DNA of 64,000 bases from positions 1 through 64,000 of the forward strand of contig JAFIGE010000003.1 of the NCBI GenBank assembly GCA_020831585.1, written 5' to 3'. This DNA is from Opitutales bacterium (GTDB lineage Bacteria > Verrucomicrobiota > Verrucomicrobiia > Opitutales > Oceanipulchritudinaceae). Below the pieces are notes generated by a model that was not told the DNA's origin, did no database searches, and worked only from the letters and a program-made list of their open reading frames with translations. This document shows positions 5,752 through 63,975 of this stretch, piece after piece; position 1 is the stretch's first letter; each line of letters opens with the position of its first letter. The position numbers and the translations under genes were made by a program.

Positions 5752-8700
5752 ATGAGGAACGCCCCATTTTTACCTGTCTGTCTGCTCTGGACCGCTGCGC
5801 GTTGGCGGTTTGTTTTGGCGGTGAGTTGTCTTTGTCTGTCGGCTTCGGGCTTGCAGGCGCAGGTCAATGCCACCGTGCAAAATATCTGGGTGGGTGATCG
5901 AGCCATCGTGGTGGCCCCGGTGAATGCCTCGGCCACCGCCCACCGCGGATCCACCCAAGTGACCTTTTCGCGACAGCTGTTTCAGGACTTTATTGGCGAC
6001 GTGCGGGTGCGGGTGAGCTTGCTCGACAGTTCGCTCAACCCGGTCCCGCTGAATGATCCGAGCGGCAAGAATCCATTTTTTTACGAGAGCGATCCCGCCT
6101 TCATTTTCCTTTCCTCCTTCAGCAATTCCTCCACGCAGTTTTTCACCTATGCGCTGCAGCCGGCGGCGGGTGTCGTTCTCGACGCAGGGGAGAATTACTT
6201 TATCTCAGTGCAGGCGCAGGCGTTTTCGGGCGGCGGCTTCGTCAATGTGGGGAGCGCCTCCGCCACGGGCGCACAGCGCATCTTTCATTTCACCAATACG
6301 GACCCCAACGACGTTCTGGTGAACGTGCGCACGGCGGTTACGGCGGTTTCGATCCAGCGGCGCTGGGCCATCGCGACGTCCCCTTCCGCGCGCGAGTTTG
6401 TTGCAAGGGTGAGCTACGAAGCCTTTCGCTACGATGGGTTTACGGGTGGGGCAGGGACAGATCCCATCTGGATTCACGTGGATCTTGAGCTGCGCGAGGA
6501 GGGCACCCACGCACCCGTGCCCCTTGTGCAAAGCCGCTTCACCACCCTGCGGAACGTTTCCCGGTTTGATGGCCCCTCGGGTGATCGGCGGCCCCATCAG
6601 TTCACCGTGAGCAACGAGGATTTTCTCATCGAACCGCTCGGGCAGCTCGACACGGTGAACCGGCGCTACTACGTGCATGCGGTCGTGCGCCATGTCGAAA
6701 ACCCCCTGTTTGGCACGGAGATGGCAGGCGTGGACCGGGCCACTTCGAACCAGCGTTTCCTCCACTTCAACGGCACCTTGCGCTACGGGGCGGTGGATAT
6801 GCAAATCCACACCATCACGAATAATCCCACTTCCGGAGCCACATTCACGGCGGGCTCCCACCATGGCACCAGCCTCACTTTCGGGCTGGCGCGCTGGCCG
6901 GGTGATGACCGTCTGCAGGTGACGGGGGGCACGGTCAATGTGAGCCTCTTCAACTCCGGTGTGGCCGTCGTCACCTCGGGCACATCCTCGCTCACGGCCA
7001 CCGAGGATGCCGCACGGGAGGGGAGGGCCAATGGGCTGCGGGTGCGGCGCGGCGCTACCGTGAACCTCACGGCAAGCGGAGCCACCTCTTTGATCACGGC
7101 CTACTTTCCTACCGGCAGCGGGTATTCGACCAACCTCGACCGCAATTTCGAGGCGACCGTGGAAGTCGGGAACCGCGCCCTCAACGCCCAGCTCGTGCCC
7201 ACGGGCACCTTCACGCTCAGCACCGGGGGCCCCTTCGTGACCTTTGAGGAGACAAAGCCCCTCATGCTCTTCACCAACTCCTTTGTTTTCGATTTTTCCG
7301 CGGGGGAAATCCGATTTGATATCACGGGGGCTATTGGCGCGCGATTCTTCGACGAGTCGCGCCTCGGTGCGGCACCGCTGAGCGATGAATCCCTCCGCAT
7401 CAAGCCCTCCAACAACAACTTCTTCCATTGGGTGCGCAATGTGAACCACGGGCCGGGCGTGCTTCGTCCGGACAGCCGGGGCGGTGCCCTCCTCACGGCC
7501 ACGGTGAGCCTCAACCCCGGTGGCCTGCGCGCACACTACCCGCTCGACGCCCGTATTATCTGGGGATCGGGGGGCGTCATTGCCATCGTCGACGACGACA
7601 TCGATCCGGCAGCGAGTTTCCTGCCTTCAGCCGACCCAGTGGAGGTGCGCTATCGCCAGGACTGCCCGGAGGGCGACTGCGGAGACACCTTTGGCACGCT
7701 TGTTTTCGCGCCGGATGGGGAATGGATCTTCGACCGCCGCGGGGGCATCTGGGCGACGGGGTCGCTCTCCGCCGGCGCGGGTGAGCCCGACACCGGTCTG
7801 CGCTGGGGGGCCAACAATGGCGGTGCGAGCTTTGCCCACGCCACCGCGCCCTTCGCCTCCGGCACCTTCCGCATGCCCGGCTCTTTTTGGGTCAACGGCA
7901 CCGGCGGACCGGACGTGGGGAGCGCCGCCAATGGGGTAGGGGTCATCCTCGGTGCCGGGCTCGACCCCGACGATCCGGATCTTTTTGATGATCCCGGTTC
8001 CGCCGCCTACGCCAGCGGCACCGGCCTCTACGCCGGTCTCAATTTGCTCCCGCCTCCCGGTCACCAAGCCATTGCCACCCTCGGCGATGCCGACCCCGTG
8101 ACCTTCACCCTTGCTTCCTGGAGCAAATACTACGTGCGGACGTCGGGCGTTTCGGGGGTGCACCAGGCGGCCTCGGGCTCCTTTGCAGGGGCGCTCCCGC
8201 TCTACGGCTACGAGATCACCCTTGCCACCTTCGGGCTGAACTTCCTCAGCAATCTCAACTTCGACTCCGTCACCAGCGGCAACGTCTTCCTCGGCTTCCC
8301 TTCGGATATCGACATCCCGTTCCAAGAACTCACCTTCACCTGCGTGGGCGCGCCCGACCGTGCTTCCGTGGGCGATGATCCGTTGCGGCGCACCCTCGAT
8401 TACTGGGTGGCCAACATCGACATCCACTACCTTCTCTTTTCGCCGGGCAACCGCGCCGAGGCCGCCTGCGACGCCTCCCAGCCCCATGTCCTCACGACCG
8501 CCGTCGGAGCCTTCGCGAGCAACATCCGCGAGGCGCTCTTCGGCTACCTCTATTTCGAGCGCACCGGAGAATTGATGAAACCGGCCAGCGAGGATGCGCC
8601 CGAGGGAGCCGTCTTCAGCCTGTATTCCGACGCCAACGCCACCCTCGTGGGCCTCGGCGAAGAGACCTACGATCTCTCCGTCTCCAAGGTCTACTTCAAC

Positions 8701-34611: not shown

Positions 34612-34991
34612 CCTTCGGGGAGCGGACGCTCGCGGGGTGGCTTCGGTCACTTCGAGGAAAGTCCGGACACCATAGGGCAGGATTCCCGGTGAAAGTCGGG
34701 GCGGGCGGCTTCAAGGCCGCTTGACGGAAAGTGCCACAGAAAATATACCGCCTTTGGCCGCGAGGCTGAGGGTAAGGGTGAAATGGTGGGGTAAGGGCCC
34801 ACCGCCCGCGCGGTAACGTGCGGGGCAGGGAAAACCCAATCCGGTGCAAGACCAAATAGGGGATCGGGCGGCCCGCCCAATGATCCCGGGTGAGTCGCAC
34901 CCGCTTCGGCGGGAATCCGCGCAAGCGGGTTAGACAAATGGGCGTCCAGGCCGCAAGGCTGGACAGAATCCGGCTTACAGCTCCCCGAAGG
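34612..34991 (+). ncRNA. rnpB: RNase P RNA, bacterial type A
   Basis: Catalytic RNA of RNase P, which matures the 5' ends of tRNA precursors. P1 is a perfect 12-bp helix between 34612-34623 (CCTTCGGGGAGC) and 34980-34991 (GCTCCCCGAAGG), fixing both ends. The universally conserved 5' core GAGGAAAGTCCGGACACC lies near 34651, the GGTAAGGGCCCACCGC-type P12-region strings near 34790, and the 3' core (AGACAAATGG followed by ACAGAATCCGGCTTACAG) at 34932-34980. The length of about 380 nt fits class A. It lies only 78 bp before sbtA, and no U-rich terminator follows; a hairpin with arms TTCGCA and TGCGAA (about 35018-35047) sits between them. Confidence 0.96.
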
Positions 34992-35068
34992 CCCTCTTTC
35001 CCAATGTGTTCGGCTGTGTTCGCATCCTTCCAACATTTTGGTTGCGAAGGGGGAGAGAATGAAAATGC

Positions 35069-57814: not shown

Positions 57815-58996
57815 CTAAAGGAAGGCGTCGTCCCCGCGCTTTTGCGATTTTTGGCGGAACTCGCGGGGAGTCATGCCGTGGAATTCGCGGAAGCGGTGGG
57901 AGAGGTTGCTTTGCTTGCTGAAACCGGTGGAAAGGGCAATGTCGGCAATGCTTCGGTCGGTCTCCCGCAGGAGTTTGGCGGCGTGGCGCACACGCTCCTC
58001 AATGAGGTAATCGCGCAGGGTGCAATCGGTCGAATCGCGGAAGCGGCTGAGGAGTGTGCGCCGGGATACCCCGAGCTCGTGGGCAAGCGTGGAAACTGTT
58101 GGGGAGTCCCCTTTGGCGAGGGCATGATTGACCCGGTGGACACAGCGTGCGACCAGCGGGTTGCGAGATCCGGGGCCGCCCCAGGTGGTTTCCCGTTCAA
58201 TCCATTGGGCTCCGGGAATCCGCTGGACAGCGCCCTTGTCAAGTTGGCCGCTGTTGAGGGCCTCTGCGAGTGTATCAGCCAGTGCCTTGCCGACGGCATC
58301 GAAGTTCGGACGAATACTGCTGAGGTTGTGATCCCCACTCAGAGCGGGCGAGTTGTCCACTCCAGCCACTGAGAGCAGCCACGCGCGGTTCCCCAGGAGG
58401 TCTTCAGCCATGGTGAGAAGGCTGGCGGCCAGCTCATCGTTGGCGCAAAAGATCGCCGCCGGTAGTTCAAGGTCGTTAAACCAGGACCGGAAGGTTTCCC
58501 GTTTGGTGGAGACGAGGCGCATCGGGTTCTCGCGGTTGAAGGGGTTCAACTGCCAAATCCGGGTTGCCTTGCCCACTTTTTGGAGATCTTCGGAAAAAGC
58601 CGCGATCCGCTCATCACTGAAGGCGAATCCTTTATACCCGACGGCCACAAAGTTACTGTGGCCCTTGCGAATAAAGATCTCGGCGGCAAGCCGGCCCACT
58701 TCCCCGTCGTCCGCAAAAATATTCATGGCGGCCGGGCTCTTGCCGAGGCGATTGCTGTAGTTCAGAACCGGAATGGCGAGCTCCCCGGCAAGGTGCCTTT
58801 CGTTTTCCCCACTCAGCGTTGAGACCCACGCGCGACAGTCCGCGCTGCAGGCGCCCCGCCGCGCACTTTCGCCCCGGCCGGCATCAAAAATCGGCAGGTC
58901 GGAGATTTCCGCCCAGCGCCGGGAAAATCCGTCGAAGGTTACCCGCATCGGGACGTAGCTGCAGAAGTGTTGAACGTATCCGGCAGGATCACTCAT
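57815..58996 (-). CDS. XylR-type AraC family transcriptional regulator
   Basis: A fusion of a LacI-type sugar-binding domain with an AraC DNA-binding domain, the XylR architecture common in Verrucomicrobiota. Residues about 10-270 form the effector domain (VTFDGFSRRWAEISDLPIFD, MNIFADDGEVGRLAAEIFIR, AAIFCANDELAASLLTMAED). The C-terminal ~110 residues carry two HTHs (TVSTLAHELGVSRRTLLSRF and RSIADIALSTGFSKQSNLSHRF), ending MTPREFRQK. Start at 58996 (ATG) or a TTG seven codons upstream. Same strand as lacI and the secreted genes; target sugar unknown (xylose is the family precedent). Confidence 0.9.
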   Translation of the reverse strand: MSDPAGYVQHFCSYVPMRVTFDGFSRRWAEISDLPIFDAGRGESARRGACSADCRAWVSTLSGENERHLAGELAIPVLNYSNRLGKSPAAMNIFADDGEVGRLAAEIFIRKGHSNFVAVGYKGFAFSDERIAAFSEDLQKVGKATRIWQLNPFNRENPMRLVSTKRETFRSWFNDLELPAAIFCANDELAASLLTMAEDLLGNRAWLLSVAGVDNSPALSGDHNLSSIRPNFDAVGKALADTLAEALNSGQLDKGAVQRIPGAQWIERETTWGGPGSRNPLVARCVHRVNHALAKGDSPTVSTLAHELGVSRRTLLSRFRDSTDCTLRDYLIEERVRHAAKLLRETDRSIADIALSTGFSKQSNLSHRFREFHGMTPREFRQKSQKRGDDAFL

Positions 58997-59133: not shown

Positions 59134-60450
59134 TCAGCCCAGCACACTTTCCATGGCTACGAGGGCCGCCGCCACCTCGGCCAGGCGGCGGTTTTGCTTC
59201 ATTGAGAGATCGCGGAGAAATTTGTGGGCCTGGGGTTCGGTGAGATGGCGGTGCTTCATCAAAAGGCCTTTTGCCTTTTCAATGACTTTGCGGTCTTCGA
59301 GGGCCTCTTTCGCAGCGAGCAGTTCCTCGTTTGTCTTTTGCAGTCGGCGGGATTGGCTGTGGAGCATATCCACCAGCGAGCGCCCGAGGCGCGGACCGGA
59401 AGTCACCGCTGAAATCGCGGTCTGCCCTCCGGGAGGATCCATCTCCGCAGAGGTCCGAAAAACCACCACCGGAGGACCGGCTTCCCCGCCCCGCTGCACG
59501 AAGCCGTCGAGGGCACAGGCCTCCTCCCGCAACCCCGATCGCGCTTCGGTCAACTTTTCCCGGCAAAGCTCTTCGAGATGCGCAATGAGGCTCTCTTCGA
59601 TCTCCTTGATGGCATCAATCCGCCGGGTTGTGTGCGTGAACCAAGCCTTGCTCTGCGTGCGGTCGAGTGCCTGGCCACCTTCCCTGGCGCAGAAGACGCG
59701 CCGCAGATTTTCCACCTCGCGGGTGTCAAAGCTGTTTTCCAAGCTACGCCAGAGCTGGCGGACGGGCTCCTCGGCGAAGTTGCCGAAGTAGAGGAAACAC
59801 CGGTTTTGCTCCTCCAGCAGCGCAATCAGGCGCGTGCACGTGGCTTTGTCGGCGCTGCCCACGGCGAAAGCCCCCGCTCCCGTGGCCCGTTCCTGTCCCG
59901 CAAATTCCTTGCCCTCCATGAGGTTGAAGAGAGCCACGAGTGTCCGCGAGATGCGCGGGTCCACTGCCGCATCAGCCGCCTCGAAGATGATTTCCAGAAG
60001 CAGGCGAATGAGGTCGCTGTAAGCCTCCACCGCTCCCTTCGGCGAAATCCGCAACCCGACAACGCTCGCCCGCAGATCCTCCAGCTTGCCCAGGCCGTGC
60101 ACCGCGTGCGCGATGCGGCTGAAGAGCCGTGTGCGATCCTGGCTTGCCGGGCGCTCGGCCTCCAGGCCCCGGAGGGATTCCAGGAAGACCCCCAGCGCCT
60201 TCCCGGAGGCGGCGATGTGTTCGCGCCGTTCCTCGTCGAAAGCGCTTCCCCGCGAGCCCACATACAAATTGGAGGCCCCGCGTTCGCGTTGCAGAGCATG
60301 GATCAGGTCGCTCACCGAGGTCACCCATGGAGCCATTCCTAAAAACGTTTCCAGGGCATCGATTTCACAGCGCTTCGACGCGATGAGGAAGCGGGAAGCG
60401 GTCCGCACGAGTTCCCAAGGATCGGATTCGGTTGCTGGCGTGGTTTTCAC
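59134..60450 (-). CDS. NIT-ANTAR nitrate sensor and transcription antiterminator (NasR-like)
   Basis: A 438-residue homologue of Klebsiella NasR. Residues about 40-330 are the all-helical NIT sensor, which binds nitrate/nitrite (VSDLIHALQRERGASNLYVG is the typical opening, with the conserved ERG). The C-terminal 58 residues (381-438) are an ANTAR domain: RKVIEKAKGLLMKHRHLTEP matches the conserved K-A-K-G-L-L-M core, then AHKFLRDLSMKQNRRLAEVA. ANTAR proteins bind pairs of hexaloop hairpins and stop terminator formation. It is divergent from nrtA, whose leader carries exactly this kind of target (60693-60733), so it should switch on nrtABC when nitrate is present. Confidence 0.94.
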   Translation of the reverse strand: MKTTPATESDPWELVRTASRFLIASKRCEIDALETFLGMAPWVTSVSDLIHALQRERGASNLYVGSRGSAFDEERREHIAASGKALGVFLESLRGLEAERPASQDRTRLFSRIAHAVHGLGKLEDLRASVVGLRISPKGAVEAYSDLIRLLLEIIFEAADAAVDPRISRTLVALFNLMEGKEFAGQERATGAGAFAVGSADKATCTRLIALLEEQNRCFLYFGNFAEEPVRQLWRSLENSFDTREVENLRRVFCAREGGQALDRTQSKAWFTHTTRRIDAIKEIEESLIAHLEELCREKLTEARSGLREEACALDGFVQRGGEAGPPVVVFRTSAEMDPPGGQTAISAVTSGPRLGRSLVDMLHSQSRRLQKTNEELLAAKEALEDRKVIEKAKGLLMKHRHLTEPQAHKFLRDLSMKQNRRLAEVAAALVAMESVLG

Positions 60451-60662: not shown

Positions 60663-60680
60663 TTGGCACGTTCTGTGCAT
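60663..60680 (+). promoter_or_regulatory. Sigma-54 promoter of nrtABC
   Basis: TTGGCACGTTCTGTGCAT matches the sigma-54 consensus: YTGGCACG at -24 and TGCW at -12, with the GG (60665-60666) and GC (60677-60678) dinucleotides exactly 10 nt apart. Only one of the core -12 positions differs (G for T). Transcription should start near 60690, just before the first ANTAR hairpin. An NtrC-type activator would be needed; its binding sites were not identified in the upstream ~200 bp. Confidence 0.75.
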
Positions 60681-60689
60681 AACGGTTGT

Positions 60690-60785
60690 TCAGAATGTCC
60701 AACGACGGGCATTCACTCTTCGGCAACGACGCCTTTCCCGCCTCATCGGCTTTCTCGATGGGTTACGGGGCAGGCGTCTTTTTTT
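60690..60785 (+). promoter_or_regulatory. ANTAR-responsive leader RNA of nrtABC
   Basis: Two hairpins with the same hexaloop AACGAC (A at position 1, G at position 4, as the ANTAR target rule requires). Hairpin 1 (60693-60714) has perfect 8-bp arms GAATGTCC and GGGCATTC. A 7-nt linker follows. Hairpin 2 (60722-60733) has arms GGC and GCC, and its 3' half is shared with the 5' arm of the terminator at 60728-60785. Stabilising hairpin 2 by the NIT-ANTAR protein would therefore prevent termination. Confidence 0.8.
60728..60785 (+). terminator. Regulated intrinsic terminator in the nrtA leader
   Basis: GACGCCT (60728-60734) pairs with AGGCGTC (60772-60778) and is followed by seven T residues. 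The long loop can pair further (TCCCG with CGGGG and CATCG with CGATG), giving an extended hairpin. It lies 44 bp before the nrtA start codon, so it would stop nrtABC transcription unless antiterminated. Confidence 0.85.
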
Positions 60786-60828
60786 GTGCAAATTTCTCAC
60801 CCATTCTCTCAACGAACCGTCATCTGTC

Positions 60829-62151
60829 ATGAATCCTCACCTTTCCGAAAATACAGAATCCCCGGCCGTCGGCCTGAGCCGGCGCCGCTTTATCCAGCGC
60901 TCGGCCATGGCCGCTGCCGCCACGGCTTTCATGGGCGTCGGCCCCTCCGTGCTCAAGGCCCGGTCCCCGGCCGGGCGTCCGGAGACGACTGCCGCCAAGT
61001 TGGGCTTCATTGCCCTGACCGACGCCGCCCCGCTTTTTGTGGCCCTTGAAAAGGGCTTCTTTTCCAAGCATGGCATGACGCAGGTGGAAGTGCTCAAGCA
61101 GTCTTCCTGGGGCACTACGCGCGACAACCTTGTTCTCGGTTCCCGCCGGAATGGAATAGACGGCGCGCATATCCTCTCGCCCATGCCCTACCTGATGGCC
61201 ACGGGCGCGATTACATCCAACAGCGTACCGCTTCCGATCAGCCTCGTCGCCCGCCTGAATCTCAGCGGGCAGTGCATCTCGGTCTCCAACGAATACGCGG
61301 ACCTGAAGGTGGGCCTGGATGCTTCCGGCTTCGGTCGTGCGGTCGCGGCCAAGCGGGCTTCCGGGCAGGCGGTCAATGCCGCCAATACCTTCCCCGGCGG
61401 TACCCACGATATGTGGATCCGCTATTGGATGGCGGCGGGCGGCATCCATCCCGACCGCGACATCAATACGATCACGGTGCCGCCTGCTCAAATGGTGGCC
61501 AACATGCGGGTCGGTTCCATGGAGGCCTTCTGTGTGTGCGAGCCGTGGAACTTGCAGTTGATCAATCAAGGCATCGGTCACACGGCAACGATCACGGGCG
61601 AGATCTGGCACAATCACCCGGAAAAAGCCCTTGCTCTGCGCAACGACTACATCGAGGCCAATCCCCGCGCCACCCAAGCCATCCTCATGGCCGTCATGGA
61701 AGCGCAAATGTTTTGCGACGATCCGGCCAATGCCGAGGAGGTTGCCCGCATCTGCTCCCGCCGCCGGTGGGTCAATGCTCCCTTCAACGACATTATCGAC
61801 CGGGTGCGCGGACGCTTTGATTATGGCAACGGGCGCATCGTGGAACAGAGCCCCCACATGATGCGCTATTGGAATGACCACGCCTCCTATCCCTTTCAAA
61901 GCCACGACCTCTGGTTTCTCACGGAAAACCAGCGCTGGGGCATTCTGCCAGCCGACCTGGACACCACCTCCCTCATCAATCGCGTGAACCGCGAGGACCT
62001 CTGGCGCAGCGCCGCGGAAGCCCTCGGTGTCGACAAGGCCGCCATCCCCGCATCCACCTCGCGCGGGGTCGAAACCTTCTTCGACGGCAAGGTTTTTGAT
62101 CCTGAATCCCCCCGTGCCTATCTCGATAGCCTGGCCATCAAACGCATCTGA
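60829..62151 (+). CDS. nrtA: Nitrate ABC transporter substrate-binding protein
   Basis: CmpA/NrtA-family binding protein, 440 residues. A twin-arginine signal (SRRRFIQ at 17-23, then a hydrophobic AMAAAATAFMGVGPSVL) sends it folded through Tat. The mature N-terminus (KLGFIALTDAAPLFVALEKG) and SSWGTTRDNLVLGSRRNGID are standard NrtA segments, as are GTHDMWIRYWMAAGGIHP and FCVCEPWNLQLINQGIGHTA. It captures nitrate (or nitrite) for the NrtBC importer. ATG 60829 is 44 bp after the leader terminator; a longer frame from 60619 would include the leader RNA and is not used. Control by sigma-54 and ANTAR antitermination is predicted from the leader. Confidence 0.96.
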   Translation: MNPHLSENTESPAVGLSRRRFIQRSAMAAAATAFMGVGPSVLKARSPAGRPETTAAKLGFIALTDAAPLFVALEKGFFSKHGMTQVEVLKQSSWGTTRDNLVLGSRRNGIDGAHILSPMPYLMATGAITSNSVPLPISLVARLNLSGQCISVSNEYADLKVGLDASGFGRAVAAKRASGQAVNAANTFPGGTHDMWIRYWMAAGGIHPDRDINTITVPPAQMVANMRVGSMEAFCVCEPWNLQLINQGIGHTATITGEIWHNHPEKALALRNDYIEANPRATQAILMAVMEAQMFCDDPANAEEVARICSRRRWVNAPFNDIIDRVRGRFDYGNGRIVEQSPHMMRYWNDHASYPFQSHDLWFLTENQRWGILPADLDTTSLINRVNREDLWRSAAEALGVDKAAIPASTSRGVETFFDGKVFDPESPRAYLDSLAIKRI

Positions 62152-62200: not shown

Positions 62201-63028
62201 ATGACCACCACCACATTTTCCGACGACTTCTTCCAACGCCTGCAAACTGTTCGCGACTGCCTCGTTCACCGGGCGCTTCCCCCGGTAACCGTGATTCTGG
62301 GTCTCCTCATTGTCTGGCAGATTCTCTGTTCGCGCGAGGGGGCGCACTTGCCCACGCCGGTAGCGGTTGTGCAAGAGACATGGGAGCTGATCATCCACCC
62401 CTTCTATGACCACGGCGGAAACGATGTCGGCATGGGGTGGCAAATTCTCGCCAGCCTCAAGCGCGTCGCCTACGGCTACAGCCTCGCCGTCATCGCCGGT
62501 GTGAGCCTCGGTGTGCTTGTCGGTATATCCACCTGGGCGATGCGCGGGCTCGACCCGGTCTTTCAGGTGCTCCGCACAGTCCCGCCCCTGGCCTGGCTGC
62601 CCATTGCCCTGGCCGGCTTCCAAAATAACAACCCCTCGGCCATCTTCGTCATCTTCATCACCGCGATTTGGCCCATCATCATCAACACCTCCGTGGGCGT
62701 GCGCCAGATCCCGATGGATTACCGCAACGTCGCCCGCGTCATCCGCTTGAACGGCTGGGAGTATTTTCACCGCATCATGCTCCCGGCCGCCGCCCCCTAC
62801 ATCTTCTCCGGGCTGCGCATCGGTATCGGCCTCTCCTGGCTCGCCATCGTCGCCGCGGAAATGCTCATCGGCGGAGTCGGCATTGGCTTCTTTATCTGGG
62901 ATGCATGGAACGCCTCTCTCATCAGCGACATTGTCCTCGCTCTCGTTTACGTCGGCATCGTCGGCTTCATTCTCGACCGCATCGTCGCCCGTATCGGCCA
63001 ACAGCTCACCCGCGGGGTCACCGTTTAA
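62201..63028 (+). CDS. nrtB: Nitrate ABC transporter permease
   Basis: BPD-type inner-membrane permease of the nitrate/sulfonate/taurine family, 275 residues with about six TM helices (for example PPVTVILGLLIVWQIL, YSLAVIAGVSLGVLVG, IGLSWLAIVAAEMLIGG). The EAA loop (YRNVARVIRLNGWEYFHRIM) contacts the ATPase. ATG 62201 gives the expected length; the open frame runs back to 62027 inside nrtA but that part is not homologous. 49 bp separate it from nrtA. Confidence 0.95.
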   Translation: MTTTTFSDDFFQRLQTVRDCLVHRALPPVTVILGLLIVWQILCSREGAHLPTPVAVVQETWELIIHPFYDHGGNDVGMGWQILASLKRVAYGYSLAVIAGVSLGVLVGISTWAMRGLDPVFQVLRTVPPLAWLPIALAGFQNNNPSAIFVIFITAIWPIIINTSVGVRQIPMDYRNVARVIRLNGWEYFHRIMLPAAAPYIFSGLRIGIGLSWLAIVAAEMLIGGVGIGFFIWDAWNASLISDIVLALVYVGIVGFILDRIVARIGQQLTRGVTV

Positions 63029-63075: not shown

Positions 63076-63975
63076 ATGAGTTCCCACTATCTTTCTATCG
63101 AAGGGCTGAACAAAGTCTTCCGCAAGGGCAAGGACGTCACCGATGTCCTCCGCAATGTGAACCTCCACGTGGACCAGGGCGAATACGTCTCCATCATCGG
63201 CCACTCCGGTTGCGGTAAATCCACCGTTCTGAACATCATTGCCGGTCTCATCGAGCCGAGCACCGGTTGCGTTATCCTCGATCGGAAAGAGGTCACCCAT
63301 CCCGGGCCCGACCGCGCGGTGGTTTTTCAAAACCATTCCCTTCTGCCCTGGCTCACCGTGTATGAAAATGTCCATCTGGCTGTGAAAAAGACTTTCCAGG
63401 GGATCAAGTCCAGGGCGGAGATGCGCGCCTGGACGGAGCACAACCTCGAACTGGTCAACATGGGCCATGCCCTGAGGAAAATTCCATCAGAAATATCGGG
63501 GGGCATGAAGCAGCGGGTGGGAATCGCCCGTGCCCTCGCCATGGAACCCAAGGTCCTCCTCCTTGATGAGCCCTTTGGTGCCCTCGATGCCCTCACCCGC
63601 GCCCACCTCCAGGACGAGGTCATGCGCATCCACAACGAGCTGGGCAACACCGTCATCATGATCACCCATGATGTCGATGAGGCCGTGCTCCTTTCCGACC
63701 GCATTGTCATGATGACGAATGGACCGGCGGCCACCATCGGAGAAATCCTCACAATCGACATCCCTCACCCGCGCGACCGCGTGGCCATGGCCGATCACCC
63801 AAAGTTCAACGAGTACCGTGCCGCCGTTCTCCGCTTCCTCTACGACCGCTCGACCCTCGGCGGAAAGGGCGCGGCGGATGGCGACTCCGCCGCGCGCGAC
63901 CAAAGGGATCCTGATGCGTCTCCCGAAGATACCGAGAACAACAAAAAGATAATCCCGCTCAGCCGCATCGCCTGA
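63076..63975 (+). CDS. nrtC: Nitrate ABC transporter ATP-binding protein
   Basis: ATPase of the nitrate importer, 299 residues. Walker A GHSGCGKST at 42-50, Q-loop FQNHSLLPW, signature SEISGGMKQRVGIARAL near 137, Walker B VLLLDEPFGALD near 160, and ITHDVDEAVLLSDRI with the H-loop His. It has only the NBD plus a ~40-residue polar tail, so it is NrtD-like in architecture rather than the cyanobacterial NrtC with a fused binding domain; the name nrtC is positional. Nitrate or nitrite reductase genes probably follow outside the window. Confidence 0.93.
   Translation: MSSHYLSIEGLNKVFRKGKDVTDVLRNVNLHVDQGEYVSIIGHSGCGKSTVLNIIAGLIEPSTGCVILDRKEVTHPGPDRAVVFQNHSLLPWLTVYENVHLAVKKTFQGIKSRAEMRAWTEHNLELVNMGHALRKIPSEISGGMKQRVGIARALAMEPKVLLLDEPFGALDALTRAHLQDEVMRIHNELGNTVIMITHDVDEAVLLSDRIVMMTNGPAATIGEILTIDIPHPRDRVAMADHPKFNEYRAAVLRFLYDRSTLGGKGAADGDSAARDQRDPDASPEDTENNKKIIPLSRIA

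Follow-up and report, generated by a model that had tools for sequence, protein, structure and literature searches.

A sigma-54 promoter and probable NasR-type antitermination leader upstream of an nrtABC-nirA operon in an Opitutales bacterium

The stretch of DNA analysed here, referred to as the window, comprises 64,000 nt (positions 1 to 64,000 of contig JAFIGE010000003.1) from an Opitutales bacterium, assembly GCA_020831585.1. Towards its end, genes for an ABC transporter follow a leader that carries a promoter, two hairpins and a terminator, with a regulatory gene on the opposite strand. The features, with the evidence for each in brackets, are as follows.

59134-60450, minus strand: divergent gene for a NIT-ANTAR antiterminator of the NasR type (Pfam NIT and ANTAR; 4AKK; pocket and RNA-binding residues conserved apart from His409)
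60663-60679, plus strand: sigma-54 (-24/-12) promoter, TTGGCACG-N4-GTGCA (sequence; GG-N10-GC; RpoN in the genome)
About 60690, plus strand: predicted transcription start (-12 position and promoter geometry only)
60693-60714, plus strand: ANTAR hairpin P1, 8 bp, loop AACGAC at 60701-60706, C-G closing pair (fold, covariation)
60722-60733, plus strand: ANTAR hairpin P2, 3 bp, loop AACGAC at 60725-60730, C-G closing pair (stepwise fold, covariation)
60728-60785, plus strand: intrinsic terminator (sequence, fold, stepwise fold)
60829-62151, plus strand: nrtA-like Tat-signal substrate-binding protein, NMT1_2 (profile matches; NrtA tree)
62201-63028, plus strand: nrtB/ntrB permease (TIGR01183, 320.8 bits, over cut-off)
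63076-63975, plus strand: nrtC/D-type ATPase, ntrCD (TIGR01184, 343.4 bits, over cut-off)
L021:3997-5799, same contig past the window end: NirA-family reductase
L021:5833-7584, past the window end, after NirA: CysJ-like flavoprotein

Two further observations concern the surroundings. Within the NirA gene, a short A/T-rich unit is repeated in frame (L021 4763-4830; CAAATCTCAAATC..., protein KSQISNLKSQISNLESQ). At 5807, immediately past the end of that gene, a similar repeat occurs, and the flavoprotein encoded downstream contains ISNLKSEI. Elsewhere in the window, a class A bacterial RNase P RNA was found at 34614-34993 on the plus strand (241 bits).

The promoter combines a -24 element, TTGGCACG (60663-60670), with a -12 element, GTGCA (60675-60679), and the gap between the GG (60665-66) and the GC (60677-78) is exactly the 10 nt of a sigma-54 site, as a sequence-only reading of the locus had proposed. 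The -12 element is GTGC, compared with the commonest TTGC, and GTGC also occurs in two other leaders. One RpoN is encoded in the genome, together with five strong sigma-54 activators. Downstream, P1 (GAAUGUCC[AACGAC]GGGCAUUC) and P2 (GGC[AACGAC]GCC) make up the two small stem-loops of an ANTAR target, with hexaloops that carry A at position 1 (A1) and G at position 4 (G4). Both loops are closed by C:G pairs (C60700-G60707 in P1, C60724-G60731 in P2), in agreement with the consensus that SELEX and genetics gave for the targets of NasR and EutV (PMC7496416, PMC3369931). The terminator consists of a hairpin at 60728-60778, with its 3' arm at 60772-60778, followed by a T7 run at 60779-60785; its 5' arm, GACGCCU (60728-60734), includes the 3' strand of the P2 stem together with the final three bases of its loop. 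The two identical hexaloops and the overlap of the terminator with the second hairpin, both part of the same earlier reading, were upheld by the sequence and by folding.

Folding of 60690-60800, a check named beforehand, returned P1 plus the terminator (-42.6 kcal/mol, z = -4.9), and none of 200 shuffled sequences folded as well. In a stepwise fold of the growing transcript, P1 and P2 form and last to about 60773, after which the terminator wins. The predicted energies are -42.5 kcal/mol for the terminator fold and -31.6 kcal/mol with P2 held, and P2 and the terminator were shown to be mutually exclusive in these folding models. Since P2 persists until about 60773, it is predicted to form without the protein, which would be needed against displacement instead; the earlier suggestion that P2 may require the protein in order to form is contradicted by this result. 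The companion claim of an unusually weak P2 was rejected. With flanks, its energy is -4.2 kcal/mol, compared with -3.2 in Klebsiella and -2.1 in Peteryoungia, which puts its predicted stability at or above that of the Klebsiella P2, and the 3-bp form, also present in Peteryoungia, Sinorhizobium and Phyllobacterium, is usual among rhizobial nrtA leaders.

Simple A1/G4 hairpins are common (143 in the 64-kb window), and the locus could in principle consist of chance hairpins and promoter-like bases in ordinary intergenic DNA. P1 plus P2 alone would be expected 0.6 times per random window, so significance rests on the combination. In 150 first-order Markov random windows with the same dinucleotide make-up, P1 plus P2 plus a sigma-54 site arose 0.013 times per window, and the full set with an overlapping terminator in none, compared with one occurrence on both strands of the real window. 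Together with the covariation in homologous leaders, in which the set is kept, and a genome-wide search in which this leader is the best match to an Rfam model (both described below), these counts in effect refute a chance origin, to which next to no probability is assigned.

The divergent gene had been taken to encode a NIT-ANTAR protein, and this identification was confirmed by Pfam domains and by homology to 4AKK. NIT (186.4 bits) is fused to a C-terminal ANTAR domain (73.8 bits), both above cut-off, and the closest solved structure is that of Klebsiella NasR, 4AKK. The nitrate-pocket Arg188 (Arg176 of Klebsiella NasR) and the RNA-binding Arg387 (Arg340) are conserved. The position of NasR Trp362 is occupied by His409, and His is also found there in G004, a low-coverage metagenome-assembled genome of the same family, and in Pseudoalteromonas; in Klebsiella NasR, replacement of Trp362 by Ala abolished binding. 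Klebsiella NasR requires nitrate or nitrite for RNA binding (PMC7496416). The window protein is 39% identical to that of Azospirillum and only 30% identical to that of G004.

Loci encoding proteins similar to NrtA or to the NIT-ANTAR protein were collected, and their leaders were then inspected. A sigma-54 site, P1 and P2 occur in that order in 16 leaders, including that of the window; in Sphingobium, Paracoccus, Leisingera and some other fetched loci, inspected by eye, at least one of the parts is missing. The architecture is shared by the leaders of nrtA orthologues in Peteryoungia, Sinorhizobium, Phyllobacterium and Methylobacterium and by the Klebsiella nas leader, and the distance from the -12 GC to the P1 loop, 23 nt in the window, is 20-22 nt in eight others. 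An alignment of 15 rows was built from the window and 14 Pseudomonadota leaders, one of two near-identical Pantoea rows being left out. With cores hand-placed on the A1/G4 loops, every P1 loop has A1, A2 and G4, while in P2 A1 is invariant and G4 is present in 14 of 15 rows. Across the stems, 94.7% of cells are paired, and double changes number 42, compared with 13.3 in shuffles; the covariation score of 0.88 (0.32 in shuffles) was reached by none of 500 shuffles, and the signal was lost in controls with the partner offset by one to three columns. The six top pairs of P1 are 97.8% paired, with both-side changes in five; most leaders were first spotted by a scan requiring stems of at least three pairs, a requirement that partly selects for the innermost pairs but not for the three outer pairs of P1. 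Loss of conservation or covariation of the AACGAC loops in related leaders had been named as grounds for abandoning the reading; instead, across the 15 aligned leaders the loops proved to be conserved and the stems to covary.

Comparison with characterized systems places the leader close to that of Klebsiella nasF, which likewise combines a NIT-ANTAR protein with a sigma-54-type site (TGGCATCCCGTTTGCA) and drives nrtABC homologues. Its hairpins, P1 CGAACC[AATGGC]GGTTCG and P2 GGAT[AAAGGC]GTCC, show the same overlap of P2 with the terminator. In contrast, Klebsiella nasR is an upstream gene with the same orientation as its target, whereas the window gene is divergent and its protein 33% identical; the P1 loop lies 39 nt from the -12 GC in Klebsiella, compared with 23 nt here; and the transporter is followed by nirB in Klebsiella but by nirA in the window operon. 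The rhizobial nrtA leaders share the sigma-54 site, P1 and a 3-bp P2 (GAC[ATCGAC]GTC or GAC[ACCGAC]GTC), with NrtA proteins 62-66% identical and a -12-to-P1 distance of 20-22 nt, but their P1 and P2 loops are spaced by 45-47, compared with 24 in the window, and the neighbouring regulator in Peteryoungia is a NasT-type ANTAR response regulator rather than a NIT-ANTAR protein. Furthermore, the eut leaders of Enterococcus present an A1/G4-hexaloop P1-P2 antiterminator overlapping a terminator (PMC3369931), although EutV/EutW is a two-component system with a phosphorylated response regulator and an ethanolamine signal, whereas the window protein carries a one-component NIT sensor.

The Rfam narK RNA model (RF03032; gathering threshold 43.2 bits), built independently of the present analysis, spans the sigma-54 site, P1 and P2, as in the window leader. 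When the stretch was searched against all Rfam families, this model aligned at full length over 60665-60735 with 36.6 bits and E = 1.1e-5. The Rfam check that had been proposed therefore gave a full-length alignment with a low E-value but a score below 43.2 bits, and for that reason the leader is not filed as a narK RNA member. In the 5.28-Mb genome, this leader is the best narK match (E = 5.4e-5), the next having E = 0.056; the second-best, at 58227-58291 on the minus strand (23.7 bits), falls within the coding region for an AraC-type regulator and is taken as a chance match. The model also scores 33-34 bits on the Methylobacterium and Niveispirillum leaders, and a second family, P11 (RF00625), matches the Pantoea and Erwinia nas leaders at 31-36 bits, below threshold. 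P11 is entered in Rfam as an sRNA gene, unlike the reading as a promoter-plus-ANTAR leader; both models look like the class of sigma-54 promoter with an ANTAR P1-P2 leader. The consensus of narK RNA and P11 includes untranscribed promoter bases. Papers linking either family to such a leader were not found in the open literature searched, nor, outside the subscription literature, any paper naming the narK RNA or motif. A covariance model made in this work from P1 and P2 (R1; 32 positions, spacer removed, 150 candidates scored) was also tried for the genome search, in which it missed its own training site, probably through the spacer penalty and the scoring of only 150 candidates, and the Rfam narK model was used instead. 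SNORD94 matches in loci L003 and L005 were set aside as chance.

Within the phylum, a Pfam ANTAR match was found in one of 388 sampled Verrucomicrobiota genomes, namely the present one. A protein search of relatives added one NIT-ANTAR relative, that of G004 (locus L005), and also gave two Clostridia ANTAR loci. The dual hexaloop was found in none of 29 other Verrucomicrobiota nrtA loci; for most nrtA leaders of the phylum, its absence is explained by a genome without any ANTAR domain. The leader of G004, the nearest relative with a NIT-ANTAR gene, keeps a GG-N10-GC site (TTGGCATTTTATGTGCT), P2 (GGC[AAAGGC]GCC) and an overlapping terminator, which supports the NasR-like reading; its P1 region has AACGGG but no canonical A1/G4 hexaloop fold. 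Near its 3' end, the NIT-ANTAR gene of G004 has a shift of reading frame, which may reflect errors in the sequence. In the NrtA tree, the window protein groups with those of G004 and of G067, another related genome, inside an alphaproteobacterial clade (100/100), while 19 other Verrucomicrobiota NrtA proteins stand apart (100/99). Given this nesting, the operon, probably together with its leader, was probably acquired from a lineage of alphaproteobacterial type, transfer being the simplest reading of the tree; GC content (60.9% vs 62.3%) gives no sign of recent transfer. Outside the subscription literature, no paper joining the ANTAR domain, Verrucomicrobiota and nitrate was found.

G067 encodes an NrtA 75% identical to that of the window, and its nrtA leader (L074, G067:C173, 5790-5945) combines a sigma-54 site with a strong terminator, arranged as in the window. 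Neither hexaloops in this leader nor an ANTAR protein in the G067 genome were detected, and G067 thereby illustrates how a plain sigma-54 promoter with an attenuating leader terminator might operate without an ANTAR protein, the hexaloops of the window being relics. Such an account is very improbable here, as the window loops are intact and identical, their stems covary in homologues, and an intact NIT-ANTAR gene adjoins the leader.

Altogether, the NIT-ANTAR protein, RpoN and the covarying A1/G4 hairpins support antitermination of the NasR type, and there is high confidence that the leader is a nitrate/nitrite-responsive transcription attenuator working by this known mechanism. Sigma-54 RNA polymerase, possibly activated by NtrC, would start at about 60690, and P1 and P2 would form first in the nascent RNA. 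If P2 were left unheld, the 3' arm of the terminator would displace it and transcription would stop at 60779-60785. Upon binding of nitrate or nitrite by the NIT domain of the divergent protein, the ANTAR domain would grip the two AACGAC loops via A1 and G4 and keep P2 closed, which should allow the polymerase to read into nrtABC-nirA. Against the attenuator reading stand the His at the Trp362 position, the narK score below threshold, the non-canonical P1 of G004, the GTGC form of the -12 element and, as regards the signal, the lack of a detected nitrate reductase.

The physiological signal is less certain. It had been assumed that nitrate is reduced in this cell, an assumption that fared poorly: a molybdopterin nitrate reductase was not found in the assembly, PF01568 giving no match and PF00384 only NuoG, whereas of five comparison genomes four have PF01568 matches. 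With a completeness of 98.5% (stated contamination 0.05%) but a division into 262 contigs, the assembly makes a true absence likely, short of proof. Nitrite may then be the substrate that matters, and a compatible variant of the attenuator reading holds that the switch answers nitrite in practice, in a cell that imports and reduces nitrite. The NirA-family reductase inside the operon fits this variant, as does the finding that nitrite as well as nitrate supports RNA binding by Klebsiella NasR (PMC7496416). However, the missing gene could have escaped such a fragmented assembly, the matched NrtB and NrtC models are nitrate-transporter families, and G067 carries a molybdopterin oxidoreductase of the family searched for, on the contig that holds its nrtA gene; the variant is therefore regarded as a possibility of somewhat less than even standing.

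The mechanism itself has a precedent in Klebsiella; new here is the presence of the complete set in a phylum from which it is almost always absent. A broader proposal, tentatively held at just under an even chance, is that the ANTAR layer is an add-on to a mobile sigma-54 nitrate/nitrite operon, that G067 uses another anti-attenuation device, and that narK RNA and P11 represent this same leader. The findings extend NasR-type antitermination to Verrucomicrobiota and point to a function for the two Rfam families, narK RNA and P11. In addition, they suggest that a complete two-layer switch, made up of a sigma-54 promoter and an RNA antiterminator with its sensor, can cross phyla with the operon that it controls.
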